DNA from: a virus
Length of the DNA stretch: 64,000 bases
Virus record (IMG/VR): IMGVR_UViG_3300006802_000094
Location: 1-64,000 of that record
Strand: one strand, 5' to 3'
Position numbers and translations under genes: made by a program. Shown in pieces: positions 2,978 through 52,579 of the stretch; within the stretch, counting starts at the first letter, position 1; each line of letters begins with the position of its first letter. The notes under the pieces were generated by a model. That model had not been told where the DNA came from. It saw only the letters and a list, made by a program, of their open reading frames with translations, and made no database searches.

Positions 2978-4594
2978 TTAAAATGGTCTTTTTTGTAGTA
3001 TCCAAGTGTCTTCTGGTATCATATGTAAACCCCTTCTTCTTCCACCACCAACTATCATCTCTTCTGTCCTTTGTTCGTCAGTAATATCTAGTGGTTCTAA
3101 TTTATATATGCGTGTGTCAGTTTCTGGTCCTTCCCAATTTTCTCTTTGTCTATATGTAATTCCAAAAATTCTATAAGGTGTAAAAGTTTTTGGTTTTACT
3201 CGTTCACCTCTACTAGTACTAAATCCCTCACGACTCTTGTCTAAGTCTACAATTATAATTTCATCACCTTTATTAAGTGGTTGATTGGTTTGTGTAGACT
3301 CATTTAATTTACCTAAATTATTTTTTTTACTTTTAATAAGATTTTTTAATCTCCTACTTAAATTTATTTCTTTTAAGTTTTCTTTATGTAATTCATCAAT
3401 TTTTGGTCTTATGAAATCATACAATTCGTTACCTAATTTTTTACCAAATTCAATATCACTAGGATAATGTACTTTCGCCATGTTTCTACTGAAAGCAATT
3501 TCATCCCCTAATTTGGTAAAATCTTTTTTATATTTTGGGTATAAATCACTTAAATAACGTGAAATAAATATACCTTGTGTCGCATGACCAGAAGGATAGG
3601 ATGGTGTATTAGCCGATTTTAAATCTTCAGAACCTAATTCCATATTTTTAATCTTAGCTACTTGACTAGGTCTAGGTCTATTGTAATGATATTTTAATTT
3701 TAATATTATTGATTTAACATCATCCATTAATTTATTTATACCCAAATTAGGAAAGTCTAAGTCTTTAGTTTTTAAAAATTTTTTAAAGTGTCCATCAATA
3801 TCATCTGCACTTTTTACCATTTCTTTTTCTGTTGGAATGGTTTTTAAATATTCTATTTCTTTTTCTGTTTGTTGTGATTCGTTTTTTGGTGGTGGTGTAT
3901 TTTTAAATTTATCCAAAGGAAATTGTTTAAATAAATCTAAATTATTATTAATTTTTTTTTTGTGTTTTTTGGTTGGGGATTTTTTAAAAACCAAATCTTT
4001 TAGTTTTTTGTTTTTAGATTCATTTATTACTGAATTAAGGTAAACGCTTGTTGTCTGTCCATCTATGAACTCAGTATCACCGTAATCAATTACTTCTGTC
4101 GTGCCACCCCAATCATAAAATTCTTCATCACCCATATTTTCAGCACTATTTTTATCAAAAGCTACCACATCAACATCACCACCTCTATACACTATCCAAC
4201 TCTCAGTCTCATCTCTAGTAATTCTATATGATTTAGGTGGTACTTTTATTGGGTTTCTTATAGAAGCATAATCACCGTCTTCTGTCCAATTATCCAAAGC
4301 CCACTTTATGTATTTTTTAGAAGCCATTGTAGATTCATAAGTGTCTAAATTTAACCCAAATAACTTCGCAAAATCATACCATTCACGCTCATAACTCGTA
4401 CTTATACCACTAACTAATTCTTCCATTTGTTTTTTTGTAAATCTTTTATGAATAGATGTTAATAACTTCAATTCAAAAGGTGTGAATGGTTTACGGTCAG
4501 CATTATCTAAAGATTCTTCATCAGACCAAGAATCTCGATTACGGTCTTGTTCCTTAATACTTAAAATTTTTTTTATTTCTTTTAAAGTATACAT
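2978..4594 (-). CDS. Multi-domain protein with a PAP2-type phosphatase core, 538 aa
   Basis: Residues about 290-385 carry the three PAP2 (acid phosphatase/haloperoxidase) signatures: K...RP in KLKYHYNRPRPSQ, PSGH in SYPSGHATQ, and SRx5HxxxD in SRNMAKVHYPSD. All catalytic residues are present (K, R, S, H, R, H, D). The domain lacks membrane helices, so a soluble phosphatase is likely; family substrates include lipid or nucleotide phosphates. It is flanked by a ~190-residue acidic N-terminal region and a basic C-terminal region. Probable processing motifs VINES (about 190) and KLNES (about 430) separate the three parts. The gene overlaps the upstream metalloprotease/transglycosylase gene by 1 nt. 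Confidence 0.8.
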   Translation of the reverse strand: MYTLKEIKKILSIKEQDRNRDSWSDEESLDNADRKPFTPFELKLLTSIHKRFTKKQMEELVSGISTSYEREWYDFAKLFGLNLDTYESTMASKKYIKWALDNWTEDGDYASIRNPIKVPPKSYRITRDETESWIVYRGGDVDVVAFDKNSAENMGDEEFYDWGGTTEVIDYGDTEFIDGQTTSVYLNSVINESKNKKLKDLVFKKSPTKKHKKKINNNLDLFKQFPLDKFKNTPPPKNESQQTEKEIEYLKTIPTEKEMVKSADDIDGHFKKFLKTKDLDFPNLGINKLMDDVKSIILKLKYHYNRPRPSQVAKIKNMELGSEDLKSANTPSYPSGHATQGIFISRYLSDLYPKYKKDFTKLGDEIAFSRNMAKVHYPSDIEFGKKLGNELYDFIRPKIDELHKENLKEINLSRRLKNLIKSKKNNLGKLNESTQTNQPLNKGDEIIIVDLDKSREGFSTSRGERVKPKTFTPYRIFGITYRQRENWEGPETDTRIYKLEPLDITDEQRTEEMIVGGGRRRGLHMIPEDTWILQKRPF

Positions 4595-5922
4595 TAACTA
4601 TAATTTATTTTTTTATTGTCATATTTTTCAGTCCACAACTCCATAAATTGGCATGGATGGGTTCCGTTATTTGCTTTCATATTTTTAAATATTCCTTTAC
4701 CGTAATTTCTACCATACCCAAGTTTGTTTGAAGCCTGTTCTAATGATTCTTTACCACCTAAATTACCAAAATTTTGACACGCTGTATAAATAATTTCAAA
4801 TCCTCTAGTTCCTTGATTATGTGCCATGTAAATTTCTGCATTTGTAGGTCTTCTACCAGTTATATAACTTAAAGAACGAATTTTTTCTTTTAATTTTTTT
4901 CCAGCTGCTTTAGCATTTTCATATGGGTCCCACACTGTCAGATTTGTAACACCATAATCATCAAAATATTTAGGCATTATTTGATATAACCCAGAAGCTC
5001 CACTATTTTTATTTTTAGCTGATGGGTCACCACCAGATTCTATATTCGCTATAGTAAACATTAATTCCTTACTTAACCCATTTTCATCACTAGATACATT
5101 AATAGCGTCCACAACCACAGGACTAAAAGATTTTACATTACCTTTTGTAAACTGTGTTTTAATTTGTTTAGGGTCATTAATTTTTGGATTTTTGTTTATG
5201 TTTTTGAGGTTTTTCATCGCTCTTAGTGTTTCCTCATCTACCTTATCACTAACTTCAAATCCATGGTCAGCTTGAAAAGCATTCACAGCTTTTAAAGTTT
5301 CGGAACCAAACTTACCATCAACACCAAACCTTGGTAGTACATAATTAAGTGAAATTAAATCTTCTTGCATTTCCCTTACTTTGGACCTCATGTCTTTCCT
5401 GCCTTTATCCATACCATCGTATAAAGATAATGTAGTTTCTCTATCAAATTTTTTACTTTCTAATATTCTGTGTAGTTGTTGTTCTGTAATTACAATATTC
5501 ATTTTGGGAAGTTTAATTTTTTTATTGGTATTTTCGTAAATGTTAATACCAGTGTACCCAAAACCTTTTACTAATTGTCCTGCAATTGCATTAGCTTCAT
5601 CCTCAATTACTCCACCAATATCTTGTGGTGGATTATTGATGTCTATCCTGCCATCTTCTAATTGTTTATGATGTACCAACTCATGAGCTATACTCCTTAA
5701 AATATCAGCTGTAGCTCTGTTTTTAGAATAAACATTTACAGTATTATCATTTAAATTATAAGAAGCTAAAGTCATTAATTTACTTCTATCAGTAACTAAT
5801 TTTACAGTAACTGGTACTTTATAACCTAAGATATCTTGACAAAATTGTAAAAACTTATCTACAATTTCTTTTTGAGATAAACTTCCACTTTGTTCTTTAA
5901 TAACATTTTTACGTGTCTCCAT
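4594..5922 (-). CDS. Metalloprotease-like + peptidoglycan-binding + lytic transglycosylase protein, 442 aa
   Basis: Three modules are visible. Residues about 20-120 are a zincin-like domain with HELVHHKQ and a downstream EDEANA acidic residue. Residues about 144-153 contain the ITEQQLHRILES helix. Residues about 160-225 are a PG_binding_1 repeat (LQ.DL..LNY...VDGKFGSETLKAVNAFQ). Residues about 275-420 are an SLT domain with catalytic Glu in NIESGG, then SGASGLYQIMPK and YMAHNQG. The role is presumably local peptidoglycan degradation during entry or release. The VIKEQ and ILES motifs suggest maturation cleavage that would free the hydrolase. A TATTTATA box lies 4 nt upstream of the ATG. Confidence 0.85.
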   Translation of the reverse strand: METRKNVIKEQSGSLSQKEIVDKFLQFCQDILGYKVPVTVKLVTDRSKLMTLASYNLNDNTVNVYSKNRATADILRSIAHELVHHKQLEDGRIDINNPPQDIGGVIEDEANAIAGQLVKGFGYTGINIYENTNKKIKLPKMNIVITEQQLHRILESKKFDRETTLSLYDGMDKGRKDMRSKVREMQEDLISLNYVLPRFGVDGKFGSETLKAVNAFQADHGFEVSDKVDEETLRAMKNLKNINKNPKINDPKQIKTQFTKGNVKSFSPVVVDAINVSSDENGLSKELMFTIANIESGGDPSAKNKNSGASGLYQIMPKYFDDYGVTNLTVWDPYENAKAAGKKLKEKIRSLSYITGRRPTNAEIYMAHNQGTRGFEIIYTACQNFGNLGGKESLEQASNKLGYGRNYGKGIFKNMKANNGTHPCQFMELWTEKYDNKKINYS

Positions 5923-5926
5923 TAAC

Positions 5927-5934
5927 TATAAATA
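5927..5934 (-). promoter_or_regulatory. TATTTATA element close to start codon
   Basis: TATTTATA on the minus strand ends 4 nt before the ATG of the 442-aa gene. The same octamer, or a one-base variant, recurs immediately upstream of many large genes in the window (see findings). It could be a phage promoter box with a near-leaderless transcript or a translation-initiation element. Confidence 0.4.
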
Positions 5935-5957
5935 CTTCCTATTAATGGAATTTATGT

Positions 5958-6140
5958 TTATTTGTTATTTAAATCATATGGGTTAGGTGGTGGTGTTACC
6001 CCAGAAACCTCTTGTTCTTCCTGTACTTTTTTTAACATCTCCATGTACTGTTCAAATGCTTTTTTTTGTTGACTTTTAACACGTAGAGTTTTTTGTTTTG
6101 CTTTCTGCTTTTGATTTTTTCTATGTTTACTTTTTGGCAT
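5958..6140 (-). CDS. Small basic protein, 60 aa
   Basis: The chosen start gives MPKSKHRKNQKQKAKQK. A longer frame to 6173 exists but begins with an atypical MCFINTF extension. The first 30 residues are extremely basic (K/R/Q); a short coiled-coil-like middle (QYMEMLKKVQEEQ) and a proline-rich tail follow. It lies downstream of the terminator at 6192-6215, so it needs its own promoter or read-through. Nucleic-acid binding is plausible from composition only. Confidence 0.6.
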   Translation of the reverse strand: MPKSKHRKNQKQKAKQKTLRVKSQQKKAFEQYMEMLKKVQEEQEVSGVTPPPNPYDLNNK

Positions 6141-6183
6141 ATTTTTTTTCTTAAATGTATTAATGAAACACAATCTTGTAAAT

Positions 6184-6215
6184 AAAAAAAAAGCCAGAGT
6201 TTTAAAACTCTGGCT
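6184..6215 (-). terminator. Rho-independent terminator of the ncRNA unit
   Basis: A perfect inverted repeat (AGCCAGAG...CTCTGGCT with a TTTTAAAA centre, 6192-6215) is followed on the minus strand by nine T residues. It ends the non-coding transcription unit that starts near 6776. Confidence 0.85.
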
Positions 6216-6633
6216 TTAGGGCTGAATTCGGTATTCAGACATCCACCACCCTTAAAAGGGAAATAAAAAAATTACAGTAGGATGTTGGGGATACCCTACA
6301 TGATTATCTACTTCCCTTATAGTAGTCATTGTAACTTTGTGATTACAACATTAACTTTGTTAGCCATTTCTTATAGTTACCAACAATTAGATTATGCCTC
6401 TAATTAATCCCTTACTTTATAGACTATAACACCTTTTAACAAAGTATCAAAATTTTAGTGTAACGTATTGTGTGACCAATAGCTTCATCTGTAAAGATTA
6501 TTATTAGTTAAACTTGGTTAGAGTTTTTCTAACAACACAGGTTATTTTAAAAAAGATTTTTTGATATTAGGTAACCTTAAACCTAAACGTAATCTCTCAT
6601 TTTATAGTGTGAGTTTACGTAGTGAACACTTTG
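6216..6633 (-). ncRNA. Candidate structured non-coding RNA downstream of tRNA-Gly-like gene
   Basis: No credible frame exists over ~420 nt. On the minus strand the segment is a chain of about ten hairpins with perfect stems of five or more bp, for example ACGTAA/TTACGT with inner CTCA/TGAG, TTAGGT/ACCTAA, GTTAGA/TCTAAC, ATTAGA/TCTAAT, TTGTAA/TTACAA, CTACT/AGTAG, GTAGG/CCTAC and CTGAA/TTCAG. It is bounded by a Bacteroidota-type promoter (6783-6813) and a strong terminator (6184-6215) and contains the tRNA-like domain at its 5' side. No conserved tmRNA, RNase P or group I intron core is seen. Large phage RNAs found near tRNAs (GOLLD, ROOL) are the families to test. Confidence 0.55.
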
Positions 6634-6705
6634 AGCGGATGGGTGAGACTTGAACTCCCAACTCCTAACTGGATGTTAGGTATTTTACTATTAAACTACA
6701 CCCGC
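6634..6705 (-). tRNA. tRNA-Gly(TCC)-like gene with atypical features
   Basis: The 72-nt cloverleaf has acceptor GCGGGTG/CATCCGC, D-stem GTTT/AAAT, anticodon stem CCTAA/TTAGG, T-loop TTCAAGT and discriminator T; the acceptor and discriminator match tRNA-Gly identity. The anticodon loop is CATCCAG, placing TCC at 34-36 but A instead of the near-universal U at position 33. The T-stem (GGGAG/CTCACC) needs a bulged A or a mismatch. No CCA is encoded. It may be a functional tRNA, a decaying tRNA or a tRNA mimic within the longer ncRNA. Confidence 0.65.
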
Positions 6706-6715
6706 TTGTAAAAAA

Positions 6716-6770
6716 GGAAGGTTATTTTTTAAAGTTACATAGTTCCAATATATATTGTGTAACTCCTTCC
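6716..6770 (-). ncRNA. Nested-stem 5' element of the ncRNA transcript
   Basis: On the minus strand GGAAGG pairs with CCTTCC, directly continued by AGTTACA/TGTAACT, with a self-complementary CAATATATATTG inside. It begins almost at the predicted transcription start of the promoter at 6783-6790 and ends about 10 nt before the tRNA-like domain. A T-run follows, so an attenuator or terminator is an alternative reading. A second GGAAGGT/ACCTTCC stem occurs at 17170-17228. Confidence 0.5.
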
Positions 6771-6782
6771 TTTTGTGTATAA

Positions 6783-6813
6783 CAAATATATAAAAAGTAT
6801 TTTAAAAAGACAA
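6783..6813 (-). promoter_or_regulatory. Bacteroidota-type promoter for the tRNA/ncRNA unit
   Basis: TTG (6811-6813), 20-nt spacer, TATATTTG (6783-6790) on the minus strand, matching TTTG-N19/20-TAnnTTTG. It lies 3' of the PPK2 gene and directly upstream of the non-coding unit. Confidence 0.7.
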
Positions 6814-6861
6814 CTTATTTAAACATTTATTGTAAAGTTTTTTTTTAGTTGTAATTTACAA

Positions 6862-9800
6862 CTATCTATTCGAAGAATTAATTTGCCAAAGTTTTACTAC
6901 TCTTTCGGCTTCTGAAAGTAAATTTCTTTTTTTATCTAAAAAAGAATTATTATTTAGTTTTGTATTAGTCTCATTATATATAATATCTCTAACTTTATTA
7001 GAATTTTCATTTATACTATCTAAGTTAGATGATGTAACAACACTAAATTTATCAACCCAATCTTTTCCACTTATCAAAAAGTGTGAAAAATTTTCTCTAT
7101 TAATTTTTTTAATATTATTTAATTTATCTAGGTACTCAAAAATAAATTTTCTATTTTCAACAACATCACCATTCACTTTTTCGATTTCATTTTCTTTTAA
7201 TTTTTCTATGGATTCTATAAAATATTTTTTTAAAATAAAATCTTTTTGTATATCAACAATTTCTTCTGAAACTGTATTCATGTTTATATCATTATCATAC
7301 ATAAAATCAGTATCAGATTCGTTAATAGTTTCTTTGTCTTTTTCATTAGTTAACTTTTGGTAATACTCATCTCCCATCCTATCTTTAAACCATGGATTAA
7401 TATCATAATCTGGGTAATAATAGGAATAGTCATTAAGTTCTAGACAATCCCCCTTTTTACCATAACAATCATCAAAGGAATATTCTTCCTCCATAAAAAT
7501 ATTAAATATATTATTTAAATTTTCTGTATCAAAATCATAAAGTATGTCTTCTAGATGATGGTCAGCGTAATCTGGATGATATTCGAATCGATTTATATTA
7601 TCCCAAGCATCATCATCTTGTACCCAATTTTTTAAATCATCTTCTATTACATAATATAGTTTACCATTACGATATTCTAGTTTACCATCATAATCAAAGT
7701 GTTCTTCTATATTATTTTTAATATCTTTTGTAATATCACTATAAAACTTATCGTGTGCCGCATCTGAATTTGCCCACCTAATATAATGTTTTATGTTATC
7801 AATATCTTCTTCATATTTATAAATTAATTCTTCTTCTTCCTCATCTAATGGTTTATTATATAATAATCTTTCCGCTGTTTCTTTGTCGACATCTAAAACT
7901 TTGATTATTAAATCCCAACTAGCATCATCTAAGTCATCTAAAAAATTACTATGTAATTCATCGAATCCATATAAATCATCACCAAAAAAATCCTCGCTAC
8001 ATAAATATTTATCTACCAATTGCCTATCATCTTTTACAAATAATTTTTGTAAATCGTCACAATCAAAAAACTTAGTTACTGGAAGTGGTTTTTTTGTATT
8101 CTGTAAATAACGTACCAATAATGGTATAAAATAACTTATGTGTTTTGGAGCACCAACTAACTTTAACATATTACGATTTATATTGTTTTTAGGGTCTTTA
8201 TCCCAATATTCAAATATTTTTTTTACTAAACTTTCTGGAAATGTAGTGGTTATTACATCTTTTTCTTCATCAGAAGTCCCAGTTGGGAAATTCCATACTC
8301 CCCACGGATATAACGATAATTGTTCCTCATTAAGTTTTCTTCTAATTGTAGTAACCGCTTCTGGATATTTAGATTTCACAATTTCACTATTTTTATCGTC
8401 ATAATCAACTTGGTCTAAAACATGTCTCATAGCATTTAAAGCTGACATTCTTTTATCATTTGAATCTAAAATTACCCATGGTGCACCACTGTGTGACGTA
8501 TCTTTAAACACTCTTTCTTTATAGTCTGTATATTCATCCCATTTTTCTCTAGAAGCTTCATCGTTGGGTGAGTATTTCCAGTATTTTAGTGGTGATTGTT
8601 GTCTAATAGTAAATCTTTGTTCTTGTTTTCCTTGTGTGATTGATAACCAAAATTTAATCAATATTACCCCTTTACCTAATAAACTTTTTTCAAAGGGAAC
8701 AACGTCTCTCATAAATTCTTCATATTCTTCTTTAGAAGAATATCCCATAACTGGTTCTACTATACCTCTGTTATACCAACTTCTATCAAAAAAAGTTATT
8801 TTACCAGGTTCTATATATTTTTCATATCTCTGAAACCAATTTTTCTTTTCTTCGTCTGTTGGGATTCCTAATGCAATAACATTAAAATACTTTGGGTCTA
8901 AATATTCTGTCATCTTTCCAATAGTGGAACCTTTTCCAGCTGTATCTCTTCCTTCAAAAATTATAACTAAAGGTATATTATTCTTTTTAACCCATTCTTG
9001 TAATTTTAATAACTCTATCTGTAATAACTCTTTTTCTGTTTTAAATATTTTCCTAGGTATTTTAGATTTTTCTTCTTCTACCTCATCATAATAATCAACA
9101 CCCTGTGGTGTTTCCCCCTGTAATAATTTTTTTTCGTATTTAGCTCTTTTAGGTAATGAAGTGTTTAAACGACTAAGGTAATCTATAACTATTTCTGTTT
9201 TATCACCACTTTTTAAAAGTTTATTTTCCAAACCTCTCAACATAGTGGGGAAATCAATTAAATCTATGTAATCAGAATCTTTTAGTTGGTCAACCAATTT
9301 AGATACTTCTTCATCATATATCTCATTTTCATCTAATGTATCTTGTAATTGTTGTAAATATTGGTTTAGTTCATCTGGTGTATCACTTTTTTGTTCTGGT
9401 TTTTTAAATAAATTACTTAAAATATCAAAAAAACCTTCATTAATTATTTTTTGATGTTCATTAAGTTTTTTATTTTTGTCTGGAAACATTTGATTTATAT
9501 CAAATATAAGGTCATTTGGGTGGTATTCATCCACATAAACATCATTATAAGAATCAAACTCATATTTTTTATCATATGCATATTCAAAATCTCTGTCTGA
9601 TTCACCTACCTCTTCACTATGTATAATTTCAGCCAAACCGTATTCAGGTCCTTCCAAACACATAATATAATGATGCAAATTGTATTCTTCAACACAACCA
9701 AGTTCAATTGGATTTGTAGTACTATATATTGTTTCTTCTATTATAGGGTGGTAATATTGTTCTAATTCAAGTTCTTCCCATTCATTACATTCACAATCTC

Positions 9801-10212
9801 CCATACCTCCACCAAAAACATCTTCAAGTTCATCTTCTGAACAAGCTCTATATTCATCACCGTGTTCATCCCAAATAATACCATCTACACACGCACAAGA
9901 ATCACCAGATTCCTCACCCACACCATCTACACAATCATCATAAAACCATTCACTTTCTATGTCACCATAAACACGAACTCTACTAAGATATACTTTTGGT
10001 AAAACCCATTCTTCAACATTATCACGGTTACCAATTAAATAGTTGTATTCATATATGAAATTCATTTCACTACTTAAATAAGAAGGTAGTTTAAAATATC
10101 TCATTAATGTTTCTCCAAATTTATTAATAGATGGTTGTTTAATTAATGCAAGAGTAGTTTGCATAATTCTTTTAGCGTTAGTAGTTAAATTTAATTTTTG
10201 AGGTGACATCAT
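6862..10212 (-). CDS. Giant fusion protein with a polyphosphate kinase 2 (PPK2) core, 1116 aa
   Basis: Residues about 375-605 form a PPK2 domain: IIFEGRDTAGKGS (Walker A, about 421-429), FFDRSWYNRG (Walker B/lid, about 472-481), then KFWLSI and a W-rich C-terminal part. PPK2 enzymes transfer phosphate between polyphosphate and nucleotides. Stand-alone PPK2 is ~250-300 aa, so ~375 N-terminal and ~510 C-terminal residues are extra. Both flanks are very acidic and Y/D/E-rich; the N-terminal one has a Cys-rich patch (CDCECNEWEE-like). Candidate processing motifs KIINEG (about 256-262, before PPK2), KLNEE (after PPK2), TINES and LLSEA could release the kinase. The start is MMSPQKLN, with TATTTATTTATG directly upstream. 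Confidence 0.85.
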   Translation of the reverse strand: MMSPQKLNLTTNAKRIMQTTLALIKQPSINKFGETLMRYFKLPSYLSSEMNFIYEYNYLIGNRDNVEEWVLPKVYLSRVRVYGDIESEWFYDDCVDGVGEESGDSCACVDGIIWDEHGDEYRACSEDELEDVFGGGMGDCECNEWEELELEQYYHPIIEETIYSTTNPIELGCVEEYNLHHYIMCLEGPEYGLAEIIHSEEVGESDRDFEYAYDKKYEFDSYNDVYVDEYHPNDLIFDINQMFPDKNKKLNEHQKIINEGFFDILSNLFKKPEQKSDTPDELNQYLQQLQDTLDENEIYDEEVSKLVDQLKDSDYIDLIDFPTMLRGLENKLLKSGDKTEIVIDYLSRLNTSLPKRAKYEKKLLQGETPQGVDYYDEVEEEKSKIPRKIFKTEKELLQIELLKLQEWVKKNNIPLVIIFEGRDTAGKGSTIGKMTEYLDPKYFNVIALGIPTDEEKKNWFQRYEKYIEPGKITFFDRSWYNRGIVEPVMGYSSKEEYEEFMRDVVPFEKSLLGKGVILIKFWLSITQGKQEQRFTIRQQSPLKYWKYSPNDEASREKWDEYTDYKERVFKDTSHSGAPWVILDSNDKRMSALNAMRHVLDQVDYDDKNSEIVKSKYPEAVTTIRRKLNEEQLSLYPWGVWNFPTGTSDEEKDVITTTFPESLVKKIFEYWDKDPKNNINRNMLKLVGAPKHISYFIPLLVRYLQNTKKPLPVTKFFDCDDLQKLFVKDDRQLVDKYLCSEDFFGDDLYGFDELHSNFLDDLDDASWDLIIKVLDVDKETAERLLYNKPLDEEEEELIYKYEEDIDNIKHYIRWANSDAAHDKFYSDITKDIKNNIEEHFDYDGKLEYRNGKLYYVIEDDLKNWVQDDDAWDNINRFEYHPDYADHHLEDILYDFDTENLNNIFNIFMEEEYSFDDCYGKKGDCLELNDYSYYYPDYDINPWFKDRMGDEYYQKLTNEKDKETINESDTDFMYDNDINMNTVSEEIVDIQKDFILKKYFIESIEKLKENEIEKVNGDVVENRKFIFEYLDKLNNIKKINRENFSHFLISGKDWVDKFSVVTSSNLDSINENSNKVRDIIYNETNTKLNNNSFLDKKRNLLSEAERVVKLWQINSSNR

Positions 10213-10228
10213 AAATAAATATATGATA

Positions 10229-10450
10229 CTATAGAAGATTCAACTTGTGAAATTTGTTAATTAGTTTGTGTTTTTCTTTTTTGTCTTCTGTAGTAGCTAC
10301 TTTTTGTTCAAATAATTTCCATAATACTTCTTTTTGTAGTTTTGGTTCTACAATACCAAATAATTTAAGGTCATTTTTATTTTTTATTTGGTTATTTAGT
10401 ATGGATTCAAGTATTTTATTTAATAGCTGTTCGTAATTAGTTTCCTTCAT
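10229..10450 (-). CDS. Hypothetical protein, 73 aa
   Basis: MKETNYEQLLNKILESIL... is a small, helical, lysine-rich protein. The N-terminal helix contains NKILES, resembling the [I/L]LES motifs found in the larger virion-like proteins. It lies 11 nt downstream of the glutaredoxin-like gene and 16 nt upstream of the PPK2 gene, so all three are probably co-transcribed. No family recognised. Confidence 0.6.
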   Translation of the reverse strand: MKETNYEQLLNKILESILNNQIKNKNDLKLFGIVEPKLQKEVLWKLFEQKVATTEDKKEKHKLINKFHKLNLL

Positions 10451-26333: not shown

Positions 26334-28247
26334 ATGAAAAGGTTAATCAAAGAAAGTGGTATTCAAGACATTAATAAAATAGCTAAAAGATATCCCAAAG
26401 CTGAAATTTATTTTCATCAAGATTTAGACGGTGTTGTATCTGCAATCGCAATGAAAGAATACTTAGAGAAGTACGGAATAGATGTTGTTGACACTCACGT
26501 TATTCAATACGGTGATAGAGAATTTTCTGTATCTAAACCTAAAGCTGAAGGAGACACAATGCAGGTATTGGTAGATTTTGCCCATGGTAAACCTATGTTC
26601 ACTATTCACACTGACCACCACGATAGTCAATCGGGTGTAGAAGGTGATACTTCCACTCAATTTAGAGGAGCTCGGTCAAATGTTGAGACCATTTCTCAAA
26701 TTGTTAGTCCTCAAGATATTTTTACTAGTGATGATATATTAAGAATATCAACAATTGATAGTGCTGATTACGCAAAACATGGTTTGACACCAGATGATGT
26801 AATGAACTACATTAAAAAATTTGACTTTAATGGTACAGTTCCCGAAAATAAATGGATGTTAGCTTTATTAACCAATAAATTACTTTTAGCATATAAAAAC
26901 AAACCAGGATTCTTAGAAAAATTGGTAGCTAGGTCTTCACCTTCATTAATGAATATTTTTCACAATATTAACTCAATAGCTGGAGACGAGAATTTTGCTT
27001 CACCAGAACAAATGGCAATAAATCAAGAAAAATATGTTAAATCACAAGAAGAAAGTGAAAATCTAAAATTAGAGGACAATATTATTATACAATACGGTGG
27101 TGGTAGTCTTTATAAACCAGGTTCTTATGATAGATACACACCATTTAAAATATACCCAAATGCTGATTTTCTAGTAATAGCTTGGCCAATGGGATTGGTT
27201 CAAGCCTCATGTAATCCATTTAAAAAAGAAAGAGCATTAAAAGGAATTAATTTAGCTGACATAGCTCAAGAAGTGTTAAGTAAAATTGAACCTCAACTTA
27301 GAAATCATCAAGTTCCTGTTTCTGTTATAAAAAGAATTGGTGAAACAAAAGCTGATGAAAGTAGTATTGGTTTTAAAACTTCTGATTTGTTTGCACTCTA
27401 TAAAGATTATTTAGTTAATTTACCTCCAGTTAACTCACCTTATTATAATGAAATTGTTAGGATAATAGACACTCCTTGGAACAATTTAAGTGAAGAAGAA
27501 AAACAAGTTCTAGACAATATTACTGTACCAGCTTGGGATGTGATACAAGCAAATAGTGGTGGCCACAAATGTATAACTAATGTAAGTGGACTTAACTTTT
27601 TTGCTAGAGCAACACGTAATCCAGAAGGTAATTATCGTAAAAAGGACGCTAAACCAACAAGGTATGTAGAATTTGTTAAATGGGTCCAAAATGAAATGGT
27701 TAAAACACTTAAAGAAAAAATAAGTCAAGAATCTATTAATGAAATAAAAAGAAATATTAAAAAAACATTAATAGAATCTTCTTTTATTTCTGATGCCTTA
27801 GGTGATTTAGCTTCAGCAGCTATAGGTGCAACTGGTTTTGTTGGAATGCCAGTAATGGTAGCTTTAATAGGTAAAAACATATACGAGATTAAAAAAAATA
27901 ATACTGATTTAGAAATAGCTTTGGACAAATTTAAGAATAACCCAACAGCTGAAGATTTAAAAGTTATTGAAGAAGAAATGTATAATGTAAGTCAAGATTT
28001 GGTAGATTTAACATCTAGGGTAATTCAACTGATTCCAGACCCAACAGCGGCAAGTGACATAGCAGCTTTTGTGGGAGAACAAACTTTAGGTGCTTTAGCT
28101 TTACATAAAATACCAGCAATTCTTGATAATTTAAAACCTTTAATCGATAAAATTCCAATTATCGGTAAGACTGAAGTAACAGACGCAATGAATAATGTTG
28201 GACTAGCACATAAATTATTGGATGAAATAGGTGATAAACTTAATTAA
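26334..28247 (+). CDS. DHH-family phosphoesterase fused to a hydrophobic C-terminal domain, 637 aa
   Basis: The N-terminus MKRLIKESGIQDI carries a processing-like LIKES motif. DHH landmarks are FHQDLDGVVSAIAM (about 27-40), VDFAHGKPMFTIHTDHHDS (about 80-98), a STIDSADYAKHG motif, and DHHA1-like GGHKC (about 409). The family includes nanoRNases, RecJ and c-di-AMP phosphodiesterases, and the exact substrate is unknown. The C-terminal ~130 residues after KTLIESSF contain Ala/Gly-rich hydrophobic helices. A TATTTATC element is 4 nt upstream of the ATG. Confidence 0.75.
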   Translation: MKRLIKESGIQDINKIAKRYPKAEIYFHQDLDGVVSAIAMKEYLEKYGIDVVDTHVIQYGDREFSVSKPKAEGDTMQVLVDFAHGKPMFTIHTDHHDSQSGVEGDTSTQFRGARSNVETISQIVSPQDIFTSDDILRISTIDSADYAKHGLTPDDVMNYIKKFDFNGTVPENKWMLALLTNKLLLAYKNKPGFLEKLVARSSPSLMNIFHNINSIAGDENFASPEQMAINQEKYVKSQEESENLKLEDNIIIQYGGGSLYKPGSYDRYTPFKIYPNADFLVIAWPMGLVQASCNPFKKERALKGINLADIAQEVLSKIEPQLRNHQVPVSVIKRIGETKADESSIGFKTSDLFALYKDYLVNLPPVNSPYYNEIVRIIDTPWNNLSEEEKQVLDNITVPAWDVIQANSGGHKCITNVSGLNFFARATRNPEGNYRKKDAKPTRYVEFVKWVQNEMVKTLKEKISQESINEIKRNIKKTLIESSFISDALGDLASAAIGATGFVGMPVMVALIGKNIYEIKKNNTDLEIALDKFKNNPTAEDLKVIEEEMYNVSQDLVDLTSRVIQLIPDPTAASDIAAFVGEQTLGALALHKIPAILDNLKPLIDKIPIIGKTEVTDAMNNVGLAHKLLDEIGDKLN

Positions 28248-28628: not shown

Positions 28629-31376
28629 ATGAATGTTAACCTAATTAACTATAGTACACAAAAAGGTCTAATATTAGAAAAAATAGAAGAAAAAGATTCT
28701 ATCGTAAAAAAAACATTACTTGATTTAGGTGGTATAATAGATGGGACTTTTACTTTCGGTACTGGTATCACAGCTATGTTACCCGCAGTTAAGCAACTAA
28801 TGTCTGGTTCAACACCTCAACTAACAGAACAAGATATAATTATTTTATATATTACCGCTATGTGGATATTAGTTGGTAAACATAAAGAAAAAGTAACTAA
28901 ATTACTTGAAATTATAAAAGAAAAAGGATTAACCGAATCATTAAATACAGTTTTTAATTTTTTAGAATCTTTAGAAGATGTAGTTTTAAAAATTGGTAAA
29001 TCATTAGGTTATACAGCAAATTCATTAACTGATATAGTCGCATTTACTTTTCTTGCATTTCCAATATTAGACGGCATTTTATTTTTAATGAATCAAGGTT
29101 TTATAGATTATGGTTCACCAACTGGTTACTTAAAGAGTATTTTATTTGGTGTGGGTATATTAGGATTTAAAAACATTTTTAATCATATTATAAAAAAATT
29201 AGGTGGTAAATTAGAAAAGCTGGATGAAACTAATTATCTGAATGAAGGTGTTGAATTTTATGATGAAACATTATTAATGGTCAATGATGTGATGTCTATA
29301 GTTAAAAGTACTATGACGGACAAAAATGAAAAAACATATTATTTACCAGAAGATTTAAGAAATGAAGAATTAATATATGATATAGAAAATTATATTTTTA
29401 CAATAGAATTAACTATATCTAGAGATGAAACTATTGAGGATGAATTTAATATCGAAGCTTACTATGTTGGTGGTGAGGATACAATAGAAATATATCTAAC
29501 AATAAACCCTTTATTCGAACCTGAAAGTTACGAACATATAGAAAATTATTTAGCTGAATATATAAGACATGAAATTAGACATGCTGAACAAGAAGTTATG
29601 GGTGTTAAACCAAAAAAAAGAGACAATAAGTTAAGTAGTTTAGAATATTATACTCAACCACATGAGATAGACGCTCAAACCTCTGGTTTAAATATTAGAA
29701 GAATAAAACAAAATCGTTCTTTTGAAGAGGTTGTTCGTAATTCTATAGAGAATAGTAAAAAAAGATATGGATTAAGTGATGAAGAAGGTGAAGAACTTTA
29801 CGACATACTATTAAACGATATTATTGAAAGATATGGTAAAGAGTCTCTACAAGAAGTAAATTTATATGAACAAACAGAGCCTTCAAAAGAAATACCCAAA
29901 AAAATAGTTTTGGATAATGAAAAATATAAAATATATGTACCACTTAAAACATCAGACATATGTAATATACCAAACACCAAGTATTGTTATACAAACACAA
30001 CCATAAAAAATCAAGCATCTAATGGAACACCTTATATAATTGAATTCAAAAAATCTGAAGCTAAAGATAATGACAATTTATTAGTTATAGATAGTGGGAA
30101 AATACCTTTTTTAAGAGAACCAAAATCAACTAAACTAGCTTACGATATTAATGGTTATCCAGTTAACATTTTAAAATCATTAAGTCAAGAAAAAGAACTT
30201 CAAGATTTTTTTCATTTAAATTATTCATTAAAAGATAGAATAAAATACAATGTTGATTTTGATGAATCCGATATGTTAAAAGGAAAAAACCATAGTAAAT
30301 TAGGTGAACTTTTATATTACATTAATAATAATAAAAAAGATTCTAAGGAACTAATTGATTTTTTTGGTTCTTTTGATGAATTTAATTCGCGTTATCATAG
30401 TTGGGCTGATGAAAATGAAATAGAATTAGTACCTAATGGTATTAATGTTTTTCTAAGTGAAGATGATTTTAAATACAATGTCTTAGGTTTAAGTAATGAC
30501 GATAACTATTATTATAATTTAATTATGGGTAATTACCATGATTCACCTTATGACGAATTACCTGATGATGAATTGGATTATGCATCTTGTTGGTTTAATA
30601 ATGAACAACGAGTTAAATTAATTGAAATTATGAATGTGATGCAAGGTACTGATATTCCTTTGAACAGACCATGTCATCAGTTTAATGATGGTGAAATAAA
30701 TGACTTTTTCAATTTATATTTTCCGAATGAATGGGATAGATATGGTTCTGATATGTTATATACTTTAGGTTACGGTATAGCTAAAAATAGAGTTGATAAA
30801 TTAAAAAAAGAGTTTGATGATGAAGTAATTTTTGATTATGAAGAAGTTTCAAATGATGTGGTAATGATTCATATTGGATGGCAATCTTTACTTTACTTAG
30901 TCACAAATTATTTAGATGAAGATAGTACTTTAGATGATTTATTTAATCAACCGATTAGTGAAATTGGTTTTGGTTTAAGTGAAGCTTATTATGATGAATA
31001 TGGTTGGGGTGAGGAAACTGAAAATGAGATACGTCAAACTATAGATAAGTTACTAGAAACTATCGATGAAAATGAAAATATATCTGATAGAAGAGAATTT
31101 GTAGATAAATTTACTAAATTTATCAAAGATGAAGGTTTTACCAAACCATCATACGGTAATTATATTTTTAGTAAAGAAACACCAATAGAAGGTAATGATG
31201 GTAAAAATTATAAAAGAACTATAGTAGTAGATAAATTAATTCCTTCTGAAGAAAAAATTGATTTTACAATAACTATTAGTGGACCTCTTAAATATGATAG
31301 AGAAAGTTATGTGTTACCTTTCGAAGATTTTGTTACGAAAGTTAAAAGTCTTTCTTTATTTGAAATTCCTCAGTAG
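28629..31376 (+). CDS. Membrane-domain plus metalloprotease fusion, 915 aa
   Basis: The first ~190 residues are hydrophobic with several probable helices (GIIDGTFTFGTGITAML, IIILYITAMWILVG, IVAFTFLAFPILDGILFLM). A YLNEG motif (about 208-213) follows. Residues about 230-360 contain a zincin motif RHEIRHAEQ (about 313-322) and a further acidic residue in PHEIDAQ. The remaining ~550 residues are very acidic and Tyr-rich, as in the PPK2 and 372-aa proteins. It could be a virion component that crosses or inserts into the envelope during injection (inference). The 3' end overlaps the bS21 gene by 7 nt. Confidence 0.6.
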   Translation: MNVNLINYSTQKGLILEKIEEKDSIVKKTLLDLGGIIDGTFTFGTGITAMLPAVKQLMSGSTPQLTEQDIIILYITAMWILVGKHKEKVTKLLEIIKEKGLTESLNTVFNFLESLEDVVLKIGKSLGYTANSLTDIVAFTFLAFPILDGILFLMNQGFIDYGSPTGYLKSILFGVGILGFKNIFNHIIKKLGGKLEKLDETNYLNEGVEFYDETLLMVNDVMSIVKSTMTDKNEKTYYLPEDLRNEELIYDIENYIFTIELTISRDETIEDEFNIEAYYVGGEDTIEIYLTINPLFEPESYEHIENYLAEYIRHEIRHAEQEVMGVKPKKRDNKLSSLEYYTQPHEIDAQTSGLNIRRIKQNRSFEEVVRNSIENSKKRYGLSDEEGEELYDILLNDIIERYGKESLQEVNLYEQTEPSKEIPKKIVLDNEKYKIYVPLKTSDICNIPNTKYCYTNTTIKNQASNGTPYIIEFKKSEAKDNDNLLVIDSGKIPFLREPKSTKLAYDINGYPVNILKSLSQEKELQDFFHLNYSLKDRIKYNVDFDESDMLKGKNHSKLGELLYYINNNKKDSKELIDFFGSFDEFNSRYHSWADENEIELVPNGINVFLSEDDFKYNVLGLSNDDNYYYNLIMGNYHDSPYDELPDDELDYASCWFNNEQRVKLIEIMNVMQGTDIPLNRPCHQFNDGEINDFFNLYFPNEWDRYGSDMLYTLGYGIAKNRVDKLKKEFDDEVIFDYEEVSNDVVMIHIGWQSLLYLVTNYLDEDSTLDDLFNQPISEIGFGLSEAYYDEYGWGEETENEIRQTIDKLLETIDENENISDRREFVDKFTKFIKDEGFTKPSYGNYIFSKETPIEGNDGKNYKRTIVVDKLIPSEEKIDFTITISGPLKYDRESYVLPFEDFVTKVKSLSLFEIPQ

Positions 31377-36767: not shown

Positions 36768-38123
36768 TTACATAACTGCAGTTAATTCACCACTATCAAT
36801 TTTTTCTTTTAATCTAGGACCTAATTCTACTTTTGGATTATTTCTAATATTCAATACTTGTAAATTATTTAAGTCAGCTATACTTTCTGGTAAACTTGTA
36901 AGTTCGGGATTATTAGGTATTGAAATAAAAGTTAAATTAGATAAATTACCTATTTCTTCTGGAATACTATTCAAAATACCTTCGATGTGTAAAATTTCTA
37001 AATTAGGGAAACTTAATATTTTTGGATGTAAGGGTTGAGATGCAACATCCATCCCATTAATTTTACCACTAACCTCAAAGTCAAATCTTTTTAAACTTTT
37101 TGGTAGTTTATCGAAAAATTCATCAAATCCATATAAACTAATAAATTTAGATACTTTATCGTTAGGATAACTTACTTTTACTTCGTCACCATAATCTTTA
37201 TTTAAAAATTTTGCAAACTCATCTTTAAAAAATTCTCTTAATTCACTTAATTCTCCTCCCACAGATAACAGTTTTTGTAAGTCAACACTCCTATCGTCTA
37301 CATCCATAAATTGATTTGATGGAAAATGGAATTGGTATTTTGGTCTTGGTTCACCTTCACCTTTTCCACCACTAGTTACAATATCATTCTTATCTCTAAT
37401 CATATATAATGGCCCATCTTTGGAATATCTTTCATAGTAATTCCAATTAGATGAAGCTGTACACCATCTAGTTAAAGGTGCTCCAGCCATGTCACAACTA
37501 ACTGCTTTTGTTTTAGGTACTACTACTTCCCATCTATCACCATCATAAAGGTAATCAACTTCCTCACGTTTTCTTTTTTCTTTTTGTTCTGCTTTCGTAG
37601 TAGTAGCTTTTTCTAAAGAAAAATCTTTAGTTAGGTCATATAGTTCATCTACTGAATTTATTTTATTAATATCTCTTTTTTGTAAATCAATTTGATTTTT
37701 AAATCTATCAAATTTAATTAAGTCTTCCGTAGTTTTATATAAATCTTCTAAAAATAAATCTTGTAACGCTTTTAATTTCTTTTGGTAATCTGAATTTTTA
37801 TCTGAACTATAATCAAAATATTCTTGTGCTTTTTGTTGTAAACCTAACCACTGTTTTATAATCCATTGTGAATATTTACCAACCTTTTCTACGTTTAATT
37901 CATCTAAAACATTAGGGTCAATATTCTCATTATCACCTTCATATCTACTTAAAGGGTCAGCGATAACTAGTTTATCTAGTATTTCTTTGGGTATTTTAGG
38001 TGGTATAACTTTACCATTAGCTTTTTTCTTTGGTTTAGTATACCTATCCACTAAAACATCGTAACGTGACATTTCTTGTTCTAGTAACTCTCTTACTTCA
38101 TTTAATAAATTTGTAAAACTCAT
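36768..38123 (-). CDS. WCTA-domain protein with leucine-rich repeats, 451 aa
   Basis: Three parts: an N-terminal helix LLNEVRELLEQEMSR (virion-type targeting/processing motif); a central part (about 200-290) WEVVVPKTKAV...TRWCTASSNWNYYERYSKDGPLYMIRD, a Trp-Cys-Thr layout seen in phage proteins and reminiscent of the PcfJ motif; and a C-terminal leucine-rich repeat array (about 355-450; FPNLEILHI, LSNLTFISIPNNPELTSLPESI, LNNLQVLNIRNNP). LRRs normally bind proteins and are rare in phages. Role unknown; perhaps a host-binding or packaged effector. Confidence 0.6.
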   Translation of the reverse strand: MSFTNLLNEVRELLEQEMSRYDVLVDRYTKPKKKANGKVIPPKIPKEILDKLVIADPLSRYEGDNENIDPNVLDELNVEKVGKYSQWIIKQWLGLQQKAQEYFDYSSDKNSDYQKKLKALQDLFLEDLYKTTEDLIKFDRFKNQIDLQKRDINKINSVDELYDLTKDFSLEKATTTKAEQKEKRKREEVDYLYDGDRWEVVVPKTKAVSCDMAGAPLTRWCTASSNWNYYERYSKDGPLYMIRDKNDIVTSGGKGEGEPRPKYQFHFPSNQFMDVDDRSVDLQKLLSVGGELSELREFFKDEFAKFLNKDYGDEVKVSYPNDKVSKFISLYGFDEFFDKLPKSLKRFDFEVSGKINGMDVASQPLHPKILSFPNLEILHIEGILNSIPEEIGNLSNLTFISIPNNPELTSLPESIADLNNLQVLNIRNNPKVELGPRLKEKIDSGELTAVM

Positions 38124-46082: not shown

Positions 46083-46706
46083 TTATTCAACTCCACTGTC
46101 CATTTCCACTTCATTGGAAAGGTTATCACCACCCAAACCTTCTCCAGTTTCTATATTGGTAGTTCTTCTATCTGATAATATTTTTGCCCATTTAGACTGA
46201 AAGGTTGCATAGTAATCTTTCACATCTTTTAATACCTCCATGAATTTATCATTAACTTTAATCATATTAGCATTACCTATGTAAGTACCCTCGACCTCAG
46301 CTATTGAATAATAAAACCTAACATCAAATTGTAATAAATCACCAGACCATTCCACATTTTCTTTATAAATGTTAAGTGGATGATATTGTGCCATATCACT
46401 AACTTCCTCATTAAATTGTTCCATAGTTTCTTGAAAAGCTGATTTTTCTTCTTCTGTTAACACTAAATCTTTTTCTGTAGCACCGTGAACAATTATTTTA
46501 CCACCACTTACTGAATATTCTTTAGTTAATTCTTCTTCAACAGTTTTACGTTTAAATTCATCTGTCTCATCATCTTCAACTTCTATTTCATTTTCAACCT
46601 GTTCATTTAATGAACGAACAATATTTAACATGTTTTTCATGTCATCATATTTGTTATCTATAAATTGTTTATTTACAGTTTTTCTATTATAAATTGTTTT
46701 ATTCAT
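46083..46706 (-). CDS. Putative virion protein, 207 aa
   Basis: NMLNIVRSLNEQVENEIEVEDDETDEF carries the SLNE-Q processing-like motif at about residue 35. A folded beta-rich part (EWSGDLLQFDVRFYYSIAEV) follows, then an acidic tail. The amidase gene overlaps it by 8 nt. The motif and acidic composition suggest an internal virion protein. Confidence 0.55.
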   Translation of the reverse strand: MNKTIYNRKTVNKQFIDNKYDDMKNMLNIVRSLNEQVENEIEVEDDETDEFKRKTVEEELTKEYSVSGGKIIVHGATEKDLVLTEEEKSAFQETMEQFNEEVSDMAQYHPLNIYKENVEWSGDLLQFDVRFYYSIAEVEGTYIGNANMIKVNDKFMEVLKDVKDYYATFQSKWAKILSDRRTTNIETGEGLGGDNLSNEVEMDSGVE

Positions 46707-49946: not shown

Positions 49947-52579
49947 ATGAAAAAAAGAAGTAATTCTATAGAATATCAAAAATCATTACACACATCACCT
50001 GGTGTACACCCAGATGCTAACCGTGATGATTCTAAAAAAGAATGGGCTATAGGTGTTAAAAAAAATAAATTTACTAAAGACAGAATTTTTCCTACCAACA
50101 CCCCAACAACAGACCCATCAAAAGGTTTACCAAAAGAAGGTATTGGTAAGGGCATCTACAGAATAAAGGCTGATAATCCTTCATTCGAAGGAAGTTATTG
50201 GTTTCATAGTGATAATTTTAATGATGATGAAACCAATAAAAGACCAATACACCCAGAACCCGATTATCTTAACCCAAATGATTTGCACACTGGTGATGAT
50301 TATGTTGAAATTCATGGTGTTATTCACCCATCAGAAAGAATAGATTATAACATTAATAATAATACTGATAATGAGAATTATGATGAATTTGGGAACCCCT
50401 ATCTTGATAAGAAAAATGCTAGTCATTTAATAGGTATTTCTAATATATCAACCAACTTAAATGTACAAGAATCTAAAATATCAAAAAATAACGATATTTA
50501 TACTATTAAAGAACAATATAAACATATTTATAAAGAAAACAAAAAAAATATGAAACCAAATGTAAAAGAACAAATAAACAGAATCAATCAAATGATTATG
50601 TTTAAAGAAGGGATGTCATATAATGACGTTAAACTATTAACTGAAGAAAATATTGAAAGTGGTGACGGTGGTACTGTCACACTTGGTGCTGCTGGTGTTG
50701 CTGATGGTGGTGATATTGCAGCTGTTGATGGTGGTGATATTGCAGCTGTTAGTGTTGGTGATATTACAGCTAAAACTCTTGATGGTGAAACTGTTAGAGC
50801 TACTGTTGATGGTGGAACAACTGAAATGGTTAGTGGTCCAATACCTGCAGAAAAAGGAGACACACTTTATACATTTACTGATACAAAATTAGACGGAGAC
50901 AGTGTTAATAATGTATACGATATGACTAAAGCACAATCGTTATCGTTAATGTATTCATCACAACCTCAATATGAAGGACAACAACCTATGTATCAAGTGC
51001 CAACACAAGATGGTAGTATTCAGTATTCATCAGAACCTCAATTTGAAGGACAACAACCTATGTATCAAGTAATGACACAAGTTCCTGTTTATGACCCTAA
51101 CCTAGATTATACTGAAGAAGTAAGACAAACAATTCAACAGTATTCATCAGAACCTCAATTTGAAGGACAACAACCTGTGTATCCAGTAACGAATGAGTTT
51201 GGTAAAATTCAGTATTATAGTGATACTCCTCAATTTGAAGGACAACAACCTGTGTATCCAGTAATGTCATATGAACCTCTTCCTGACCCTTTAGAACCAC
51301 CTACTAATCCTTATGATGGTTTGACTCTTGACCAAGCAAATTCTCAGTTATCCGAAAAGAAACTTACTTTACAAAAATATGAATCTGACGTTAAAAATTA
51401 TGAAGAATTCTATGGGGTAGATTCAGAGGAAGTCAAGTCTACTAAATCTTTAATAAGTAAAGTGCAATCAGATATATCTTATTTAGAACAATTAATAGCT
51501 GAATTAGAAAAAGGAGACGGTGGTCCTGATGGTCCTGATGGTCCTGATGGTCCTGATGGTCCTGATGGTCCTGATGGTCCTGGTGGTGATGTTGTAAATT
51601 TAGAAGATGTAATAGATGACCCAATAACATTTAGTGTTGAAGAAGATGGTAAACCTGCAGCTATTTTCTTAGCAACACCTGAACAAGAACTAGAATTATA
51701 CACTGGAGATGATAGTTTTTATGAATTTAAAGGTGGTGATGAAGAATTGAGTGTCATTGCTTTTAACGATAAAGCTTCACCTGTACCTATTTTAGGAATT
51801 AATAGTAAATATCAAGATGTTTTTGAGAAGGTTTTAGCGAACTCTGATATAGATGATTATAGTAAAGTTTCTTTTGAGAATAAAGAGTCCGAAATTAGAG
51901 GTCAAAAAATTAAAGGAGATGGTTTAAAATATACACTATATAGTATTAGTAATATACAAAACTTAAACCCAGAAAGTATAAATGGTATATTAAAAGGTAT
52001 TAGTGATGGTAAAAAAGAAACTGCTAGAGTAACAAAATCATTTGTGAAAGGTGGTGCTAGTAAACGAGGTTCATATACCGCACCTTCTTACGGACCAACT
52101 TCTCTTGGTGCTAATTCATTAGCCTTTGGTACTGCTAAATCTGCTTACAATCCTTTCGGTGGTTCAGAAACTGGTAAATTTTCCGCTGGTAAAACAGCTA
52201 ACCTTTCTAGAGGAGTTAGAGGCCAATTAAAAGATATGAGTAAAGCTGAATTACTTAACGTTATTAATCAATTAAGTGATAATCAAGAAAGTGATAATCA
52301 AGAAAAAGAAGAGTTAAATGAGTCTAGAAAATCAAACAAAAAAATGATTAGACTTACAGAAGCTGACTTGTACAAAATTGTAGATAGAGTTATTCGTGAA
52401 AAAAAAAAGTTCTAAAAGAATCTGACGGAAAAGGATGTGCTAATTCCAAACAAGGTTGTATTAGAAAAAGAAAAAATGGTTGGGTAATACTTAACAATAA
52501 GAAAGGTGGTGTATGGAGAGAATGTGATAGTCGTAATGACTGTGAAGAACAATTAAAAGCATTTCACGCTAATAAGTAA
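49947..52579 (+). CDS. Repeat-rich structural protein, 822 aa with probable -1 frameshift to ~877 aa
   Basis: The zero frame ends at 52415. N-terminal part: SPGVHPDANRDDSKKEWAIGVKKNKFT and an IHGVIHPSERID motif. Then VKLLTEE (processing-like), a GGDIAAV repeat, four PQ(F/Y)EGQQP(M/V)Y(Q/P)V repeats (about 335-440) and a collagen-like (GPD)6GPG block. The C-terminus has MIRLTEADLYKIVDRVIRE, a virion-targeting-type helix. At A AAA AAG (52403-52409) a -1 shift would continue through VLKES into a Cys-rich basic domain ending at 52579. A homopolymer sequencing error is the alternative. Confidence 0.65.
50950..51270 (+). repeat. Four copies of a PQFEGQQPxY coding repeat
   Basis: Copies begin near 50952, 51023, 51141 and 51212; each contains tcaatttgaaggacaacaa or a close variant. 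Recombination between copies could change copy number. Confidence 0.85.
51522..51584 (+). repeat. Collagen-like GGTCCTGAT microsatellite, six units plus one variant
   Basis: Six perfect 9-nt GGTCCTGAT units followed by GGTCCTGGT, encoding (Gly-Pro-Asp)6-Gly-Pro-Gly. Collagen-like stalks occur in phage fibres and structural proteins. Confidence 0.9.
52403..52409 (+). promoter_or_regulatory. Slippery heptamer A AAA AAG (candidate -1 frameshift site)
   Basis: The zero-frame codons AAA AAG in context A AAA AAG match the strongest known bacterial -1 slippery heptamer (as in dnaX). The zero frame terminates 6 nt later (TTC TAA), while the -1 frame stays open for 56 codons and encodes VLKES followed by a Cys-containing domain. 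Confidence 0.6.

Follow-up and report, generated by a model that had tools for sequence, protein, structure and literature searches.

The present analysis concerns a 64,000-nucleotide stretch of viral DNA (hereafter the window), which is part of a 69,283-bp IMG/VR virus record corresponding to an incomplete contig, and in particular three open reading frames (ORFs) located at 2978-10212. The proteins that they encode, together with several others of the window, are probably head-cargo (internal) proteins of a marine T4-like phage that are tagged, trimmed by an S77 protease and injected with the DNA. The reading of these proteins as packaged and protease-trimmed cargo is well supported by comparison, rather than by direct demonstration in the window phage. 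Tags, candidate cleavage sites, shuffling of modules at these sites, a protease and a capsid motif in relatives, and a link between tag and virion in another phage are all seen in the sequences. The organization of the locus is as follows:

2978..4594, minus strand: 538-aa polyprotein-like ORF (N-terminal tag MYTLKEIKKILSIKE/Q, the slash marking here and below the bond after the glutamate of a site; unknown module; PAP2 phosphatase; GDEIxxVD module)
3443..3700, minus strand: PAP2 phosphatase domain of the 538-aa protein (Pfam, E-value 5e-9)
4594..5922, minus strand: 442-aa ORF, a tagged zincin metallopeptidase fused to a tagged peptidoglycan-binding/transglycosylase protein
4807..5103, minus strand: SLT transglycosylase domain PF01464 of the 442-aa protein (Pfam)
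5215..5385, minus strand: peptidoglycan-binding domain PF01471 (PG_binding_1) of the 442-aa protein (Pfam)
5557..5874, minus strand: zincin (IrrE/minigluzincin-like) metallopeptidase module with HELVHH (homologue alignment and structure model)
6862..10212, minus strand: 1116-aa polyprotein-like ORF with a central PPK2; its relatives differ in module order
8389..9045, minus strand: PPK2 (polyphosphate kinase 2) domain of the 1116-aa protein (Pfam, E-value 4e-72)

All motifs of the PAP2 domain are intact (KLKYHYNRP, PSGH and SRNMAKVHYPSD) and the PPK2 domain retains GRDTAGKGS and FDRSWYNR. PG_binding_1 and SLT are both detected with E-values of about 1e-11, and the SLT glutamate and the zincin signature motifs are present. 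The zincin occupies the first 134 aa of the 442-aa protein, and its HELVHHKQ and E.EAN motifs are invariant among 32 viral homologues. Its structure model, computed from the alignment (the single-sequence model is poor), has a pLDDT (predicted local distance difference test) score of 85 and is similar to IrrE and minigluzincin peptidases and to viral predicted structures (E-value 1e-8); its first 12 residues, which include IKE/Q, score below 50 and the C-terminal stretch near IYE/N is low on average. The original prediction, made from the DNA sequence alone, had placed a metalloprotease and a transglycosylase in one protein, and both are indeed found in the 442-aa protein, the former through homologues and the model and the latter through Pfam. 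Its description of three huge proteins in a row is right as regards the existence of the ORFs and the domains found by Pfam (PAP2, PG_binding_1/SLT and PPK2), but the second protein, at 442 aa, cannot be called huge, and it is separated from the 1116-aa protein by 0.7 kb, close to a 71-aa ORF. The zincin is also found in IMG/VR contigs L165-L208, where it follows LKE/EVTRKELAPML in proteins that reach 1300 aa and have a nucleotidyltransferase-like MKILAVYPGRFQPFHKGHAQVY at their start.

The IMG/VR relatives used for comparison include G002 (194 kb, syntenic with the window, PPK2 86% identical), G003 (66 kb, PPK2 domain 71% identical) and the more distant G004 and G005 (PPK2 identity of 44-48%), and the architecture of the window is repeated in three near-identical IMG/VR contigs. 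Among named records, the closest PPK2s belong to the huge phages LR756501 (W01, 735 kb), LR756502 (W02, 642 kb) and LR745206 (W03, 635 kb). The 538-aa protein is homologous to a 2007-aa protein of G002. The candidate [IL]xE sites of the three proteins are the following:

3296..3307, minus strand: LNE/S, aa 430-433 of the 538-aa protein; precedes the GDEIxxVD module
4016..4027, minus strand: INE/S, aa 190-193 of the 538-aa protein; precedes the PAP2 module, glutamate kept in the G002 alignment
4547..4558, minus strand: IKE/Q, aa 13-16 of the 538-aa protein; end of the N-terminal tag, IQE/Q in G002
5458..5502, minus strand: internal MNIVITEQQLHRILE/S (ILE/S, aa 155) of the 442-aa protein; retained N-terminal tag of the downstream gene, counterpart of the MKIVITEEQLQKIL.. 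that starts a separate ORF in relatives
5890..5901, minus strand: IKE/Q, aa 8-11 of the 442-aa protein; end of the N-terminal tag, in the disordered start of the zincin model
7315..7326, minus strand: INE/S, aa 963-966 of the 1116-aa protein; counterpart of INE/Q at aa 1223 in G002
8323..8334, minus strand: LNE/E, aa 627-630 of the 1116-aa protein; downstream of PPK2, LDE/Q in G002 and IKE/S in G003
9433..9444, minus strand: INE/G, aa 257-260 of the 1116-aa protein; directly ahead of PPK2, INE/G in G002 and LKE/S in G003

The six motifs originally named around PAP2, the protease/transglycosylase junction and PPK2 were all found in place when checked on the sequence. The 2007-aa protein of G002 has, at aa 1097, an LNE/S that matches the one at aa 430-433 of the 538-aa protein, and distant PPK2 homologues begin with a capsid-targeting sequence (CTS) at the position of the INE/G site of the 1116-aa protein. 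The specific form [IL][NKYQ]E[SGAQ] occurs six times in the three proteins compared to 1.2 expected, 17 times compared to 3.9 expected in the initially named set extended by three added proteins, and only five times compared to 8.7 expected in all remaining proteins of the window. As this enriched set was partly picked by the motif itself, weight was placed on independent tests. A T4-wide count of [ILVM]xE[ASGQN] by position gave a weak signal that is not specific.

The comparison with relatives revealed extensive fusion and shuffling of modules. In G002/L136, L137 and L138, the zincin and the peptidoglycan-binding protein are encoded by two distinct ORFs, both of them tagged. The 442-aa protein of the window fuses both, and MNIVITEQQLHRILES stays at the junction. 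In G002, the tag and the peptidoglycan-binding domain are separated by an M23 peptidase, a 1014-aa protein has an inserted GDEIxxI module between SLQE/ and LYE/Q, and the module found at aa 3-254 of the 1116-aa protein sits after PPK2, flanked by LDE/Q and LNE/Q. Furthermore, the 2007-aa protein of G002 contains at least five GDxIxVxD modules, each beginning after LNE/Q, LNE/S or LHE/S; such modules start right after a site in the polyproteins of both G002 and the window. For 31 module breakpoints (those common to protein pairs not being fully independent), the median distance to [IL]xE[ASGQN] is 10 aa compared to 55 for random positions (p<5e-5), and none of the controls ([IL]xD, reversed motif and [IL]xK) had a comparable effect. 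The initial idea of polyproteins that would be cut between domains is thus borne out in part: the domains move as motif-bounded cassettes, and at one junction two genes, each with its own tag, have been joined.

The prohead protease, which the original prediction proposed to locate outside the window, is found in relatives. G003, whose PPK2 resembles that of the window, encodes an S77 protease (E-value 4e-26) that matches the T4 gp21 structure 5jbl (E-value 2e-16) and has conserved His and Ser boxes, and such gp21-type proteases with catalytic His and Ser are also present in W01 and G005. The G003 gene is located a few genes upstream of that of a gp23-type capsid protein (E-value 6e-60). The capsid propeptides, whose ends were assigned by position and motif, end in HLINE/AS in G003, QIVSE/A in the Flavobacterium phage immuto, SINE/N in G005 and QMNE/N in W01, compared to FLTE/A in T4 gp23. 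The G003 propeptide end matches the inter-domain sites and, therefore, capsid and inter-domain sites have one common motif; this capsid motif is known from relatives only, since the window contig carries no capsid gene. In W01 (LR756501, 73913-76336) and in G005 (3586-5700), the prohead protease is joined to a region made of 13 and 10 copies, respectively, of Y.EY[ILV]AE, a repeat that looks like the CTS itself. This may be a protease-scaffold fusion whose repeats are mimicked by the tags.

The PPK2 homologues of W01, W02, G004 and G005 all start with a T4-like CTS (for example MISNYDNFMNE/S); that of W01 starts with MISNYDNFMNES, and many neighbouring genes start similarly. A 10-column tag matrix trained on W01, with expectations derived from shuffled N-termini and internal segments, has hits in 79 of the 980 ORFs of W01 (about five expected), 44 of 934 in W02, 20 of 158 in G004, 10 of 132 in G005 and none of 98 in crAss001. 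In T4, it hits only IPII and IPIII, two internal proteins directed into the capsid by their N-terminal leader (PMC12373910; PMC3012670). A Pfam scan of 100 tagged proteins left most of them without family; those assigned include PPK2, methyltransferases, radical SAM (S-adenosylmethionine) proteins, RNA ligase, phage lysozyme, DHH and aldolase. The tags of the window lineage are helical leaders of about 10-35 aa that end in [IL]xE (MKIVITEEQLQKIL..LNE/A, MxxLLxEIxRxxxIMGL..LxE/Q and MKKIIKE/S). Modules of this lineage that have CTS-tagged distant relatives tend to hold [ILV]xE[ASGQN] at a similar position (Fisher p 3e-4), for example a 637-aa DHH protein of the window, PPK2, and a G002 protein starting with MSKRIRQIIRE/QAG, compared to MKNFTRFINE/N in W01. 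The likeness of N-termini among unrelated proteins exceeds that of mid-protein controls in the lineage and in immuto (18 pairs compared to 2-4 in immuto, score of at least 40), an excess that partly comes from signal peptides, Rossmann folds and tail-protein families. Phage immuto (NC_055915), an isolate from host LMO8 whose capsid protein ranks among the closest ones in the isolate collection, has many tags in the style of the window. It carries near-identical N-terminal tags, MENFDLKKFLVENKLT..LLKE and MKKQILSEQFRRMQKLAGIITES, on several proteins (for example at 1803, 25061, 103806, 111675 and 117631) that have no detected similarity beyond the tag and include a putative cobalamin adenosyltransferase.

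The link between tag and virion was examined in Synechococcus phage S-CREM2 (OR473000), the only phage in which the matrix was compared to a virion proteome and for which mass spectrometry detected 52 virion proteins (PMC10665884). The W01 matrix, untouched and applied blind with a score of at least 6, picked 5 of the 28 detected proteins of non-structural class, none of the 24 structural ones and one of the 161 undetected ORFs (Fisher p=3e-4), the latter hit not resembling a real tag; at a score of at least 8, the counts are 3 of 28 and 0 of 161. The proteins picked are a SAM hydrolase (MKDFDSFLEE), an APH-like kinase (MKRFDAFLTEE), a cytidylyltransferase (MKNFSSFLTEA), a Cas9-like nuclease (RFASFMAEA) and gp13 (MKDLHSFLTEQ). 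Two further enzymes reported from virions (PMC10665884), the S-SZBM1 cytidylyltransferase (MRFRQFIIEA) and the kinase of S-CRM01 (MISFDQFLSE), have a tag of this kind. The authors of that study left open a contamination by such enzymes and gave no packaging signal (PMC10665884). Overall, we infer that, throughout T4-like phages, this tag designates proteins carried in the head. The S-CREM2 virion protein with the CTS-like start RFASFMAEA is the one annotated as a Cas9-like nuclease (7704-10313).

Judging from the tags of the window phage and their CTS-tagged homologues, the short amphipathic N-terminal tag would direct each protein into the prohead scaffold core. The further steps are proposed by analogy with T4. 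During head maturation, the gp21-type (S77) protease that trims the capsid protein at INE/A would cut after the glutamate of [IL]xE/[SQGAN], thus releasing mature enzymes inside the head. In the window lineage, where modules have been fused or swapped in many tagged genes, part of the cargo would be made as strings of domains with retained tags and sites, split by the same protease. Ejection with the DNA would then supply the host, as infection begins, with PPK2, PAP2 phosphatase, metallopeptidase, DHH-type and murein-cutting activities. For the window phage, we infer tag function, cleavage at internal sites and injection; in its lineage, the function of the tags is suggested by homology only.

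Several observations weigh against this scheme. The broad [IL]xE motif, which is frequent by chance, is not enriched at N-termini within the window (38 of 78 compared to 32.9 expected). The glutamates of the sites show no excess of conservation between the window and G002 (22 of 34 sites compared to 986 of 1465 other glutamates). The prohead protease is absent from the 69-kb contig, which is incomplete. The W01 matrix detects no tag in the window phage, G002 and G003, and the canonical CTS (Y/F-x-x-F/Y-I/L-x-E) is not found there; therefore, the tags of this lineage differ in style. Their link to the CTS is made solely via homologues, through a comparison that covers few independent families and whose cases are not fully independent. 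Finally, many viral homologues of the zincin module stand alone without a tag.

The background level of generic [IL]xE and the unremarkable conservation of its glutamate are what would be expected if these motifs were meaningless, as ordinary linkers or chance occurrences in Glu- and Leu-rich phage proteins. However, specific forms of the motif are enriched while others are not, and the breakpoint test, the canonical CTS on four PPK2 homologues and the blind virion test are hard to square with chance, which makes this explanation very unlikely. It is still less credible, to the point of being negligible, that the fused and permuted ORFs are mis-joined contigs: the data on the window lineage are all metagenomic, but the same 442-aa fusion is present in three near-identical contigs with different IMG sample numbers and 99-100% identity.

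The main rival is the polyvalent-protein model, in which the multidomain proteins would enter the host intact and owe their cleavage to the zincin domains that they contain and not to the prohead protease. Zincin domains occur in the 442-aa protein, in a 915-aa protein of the window and in a 640-aa protein of G003, and the survey of polyvalent proteins found the zincin metallopeptidase to be their commonest domain and suggested that it separates the units (PMC5512222). However, within this phage group the inter-domain motif equals the site at which the capsid propeptide ends, single-domain homologues hold it as an N-terminal CTS, and tagged proteins devoid of zincin are common in W01. Zincin self-processing may act besides the prohead protease but is improbable in its place. 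Alternatively, the tags could only bring proteins into the head, with removal of the N-terminal tag, the internal copies being fusion scars and the domains staying joined. In favour of this explanation, the tag at the junction of the 442-aa protein is clearly the remnant of a former N-terminus, and cleavage at internal sites is a prediction. Nevertheless, unselected scars would be expected to decay, whereas both the window phage and G002 retain the P3-P1' motif where modules meet inside a protein (LNE/ST, INE/G and LNE/Q), and cassette ends follow the motif and not the adjacent sequence. Targeting without internal processing is somewhat unlikely.

The window system appears as a variant of T4-type internal-protein packaging. 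It shares with the gp21-processed T4 proteins IPI, IPII, IPIII and Alt a short N-terminal tag ending in (I/L)xE, a gp21-type protease and a gp23-type propeptide motif. However, T4 has few cargo proteins compared to about 44-79 tagged proteins in megaphages, and the window lineage has other tag sequences, multidomain proteins with internal sites, and cargo including metabolic and murein enzymes. The original proposal is partly upheld. T4-type packaging tags and prohead-protease sites on enzymes are supported (protease and capsid motif of G003, CTS on PPK2 and DHH homologues, S-CREM2 test), although the window proteins do not carry the canonical CTS; presence in the particles of the window phage and delivery into the host are predictions. 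Like polyvalent proteins, which are multidomain, shuffled, zincin-bearing and presumed to enter the recipient along with the DNA (Iyer et al. 2017, PMC5512222), the window proteins combine several unrelated domains per polypeptide, a zincin peptidase and domain shuffling. They differ in that their module ends are marked by a prohead-protease motif and CTS, whereas the survey proposes zincin self-processing (PMC5512222). The typical polyvalent set (ArdC-N, DarB methyltransferase-helicase and LPD domains) is missing from the window proteins according to Pfam and NCBIfam scans, and PPK2 is not mentioned in the main text of the survey (PMC5512222). The ejection proteins of phiKZ/SPN3US are also packaged in the head and lose propeptides to the prohead protease, but these propeptides are long (often >100 residues), carry AxE/SxE motifs and mostly do not have the length of a T4 CTS (PMC5694885), which is not the case of the short [IL]xE-ending tags described here. 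Cyanophage virion enzymes (SAM hydrolase, kinases and NMNAT-like proteins) were found in particles by mass spectrometry (PMC10665884) and, as seen here, have T4-like CTS starts; fused multi-enzyme strings were not part of that study.

Other tagged or multidomain proteins of the window are the following:

26334..28247, plus strand: 637-aa DHH phosphoesterase-like protein with short tag MKRLIKE/S (Pfam DHH weak, E-value 7e-4)
28629..31376, plus strand: 915-aa polyprotein-like ORF with a hydrophobic module, an HExxH metallopeptidase-like module and more modules; sites LNE/G (aa 206) and LYE/Q (aa 414)
36768..38123, minus strand: 451-aa leucine-rich repeat protein with N-terminus MSFTNLLNEVRELLE/Q (Pfam and sequence)
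46083..46706, minus strand: 207-aa protein with N-terminal SLNE/Q (aa 35), a site kept in G002
49947..52415, plus strand: 822-aa protein with sites IKE/Q (aa 189) and LNE/S (aa 792) and C-terminal tag-like helix RLTEADLYKIVDRVI
52635..52997, plus strand: 120-aa protein with tag MMSKIRITENDIKRALSKIIYE/Q, kept in G002 as KVINE/Q

The W02 homologue of the 637-aa protein opens with the CTS MLRKYGQFINE/E, and the G002 counterpart of the 915-aa protein has one extra module between the equivalent SLQE/ and LYE/Q sites. The motif was initially said to recur in seven further proteins; this is true of these six, but the 84-aa protein has LRE/F, which misfits the rule then given for the residue after the cut. 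In the 822-aa protein, the tag-like helix RLTEADLYKIVDRVIREKKKF is C-terminal and not N-terminal, and a GPDGPDG run is also present. In a 289-aa protein (44175-45044), a segment of about 30-37 aa (DEEIDEVTGASSAGAFVAPMGWEPQQGMC) is duplicated in tandem almost perfectly.

In the open-access literature, we found no paper joining "huge phage" with "capsid targeting sequence", and the latter term occurs together with "cyanophage" only in a general T4 review. The tag accounts for enzymes detected by mass spectrometry in cyanophage virions and gives about 40-80 candidates per megaphage. If this reading is true, many "auxiliary metabolic genes" and hypothetical proteins of phages would be injected cargo acting ahead of phage gene expression, and delivered proteins would be predictable from genomes alone via a sequence tag. 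This would also point the way to packaging tags that are portable and to prohead proteases able to process polyproteins. Taken more broadly, the chances seem evenly balanced that dozens of different enzymes are carried in the head under a portable N-terminal tag by many T4-related phages, including megaphages of up to 735 kb, and that, in one lineage, these have become modular polyproteins. There, the capsid-maturation protease would separate strings of enzyme modules in the head ahead of injection, and PPK2 and other metabolic enzymes would act on the host from the first moment of infection.

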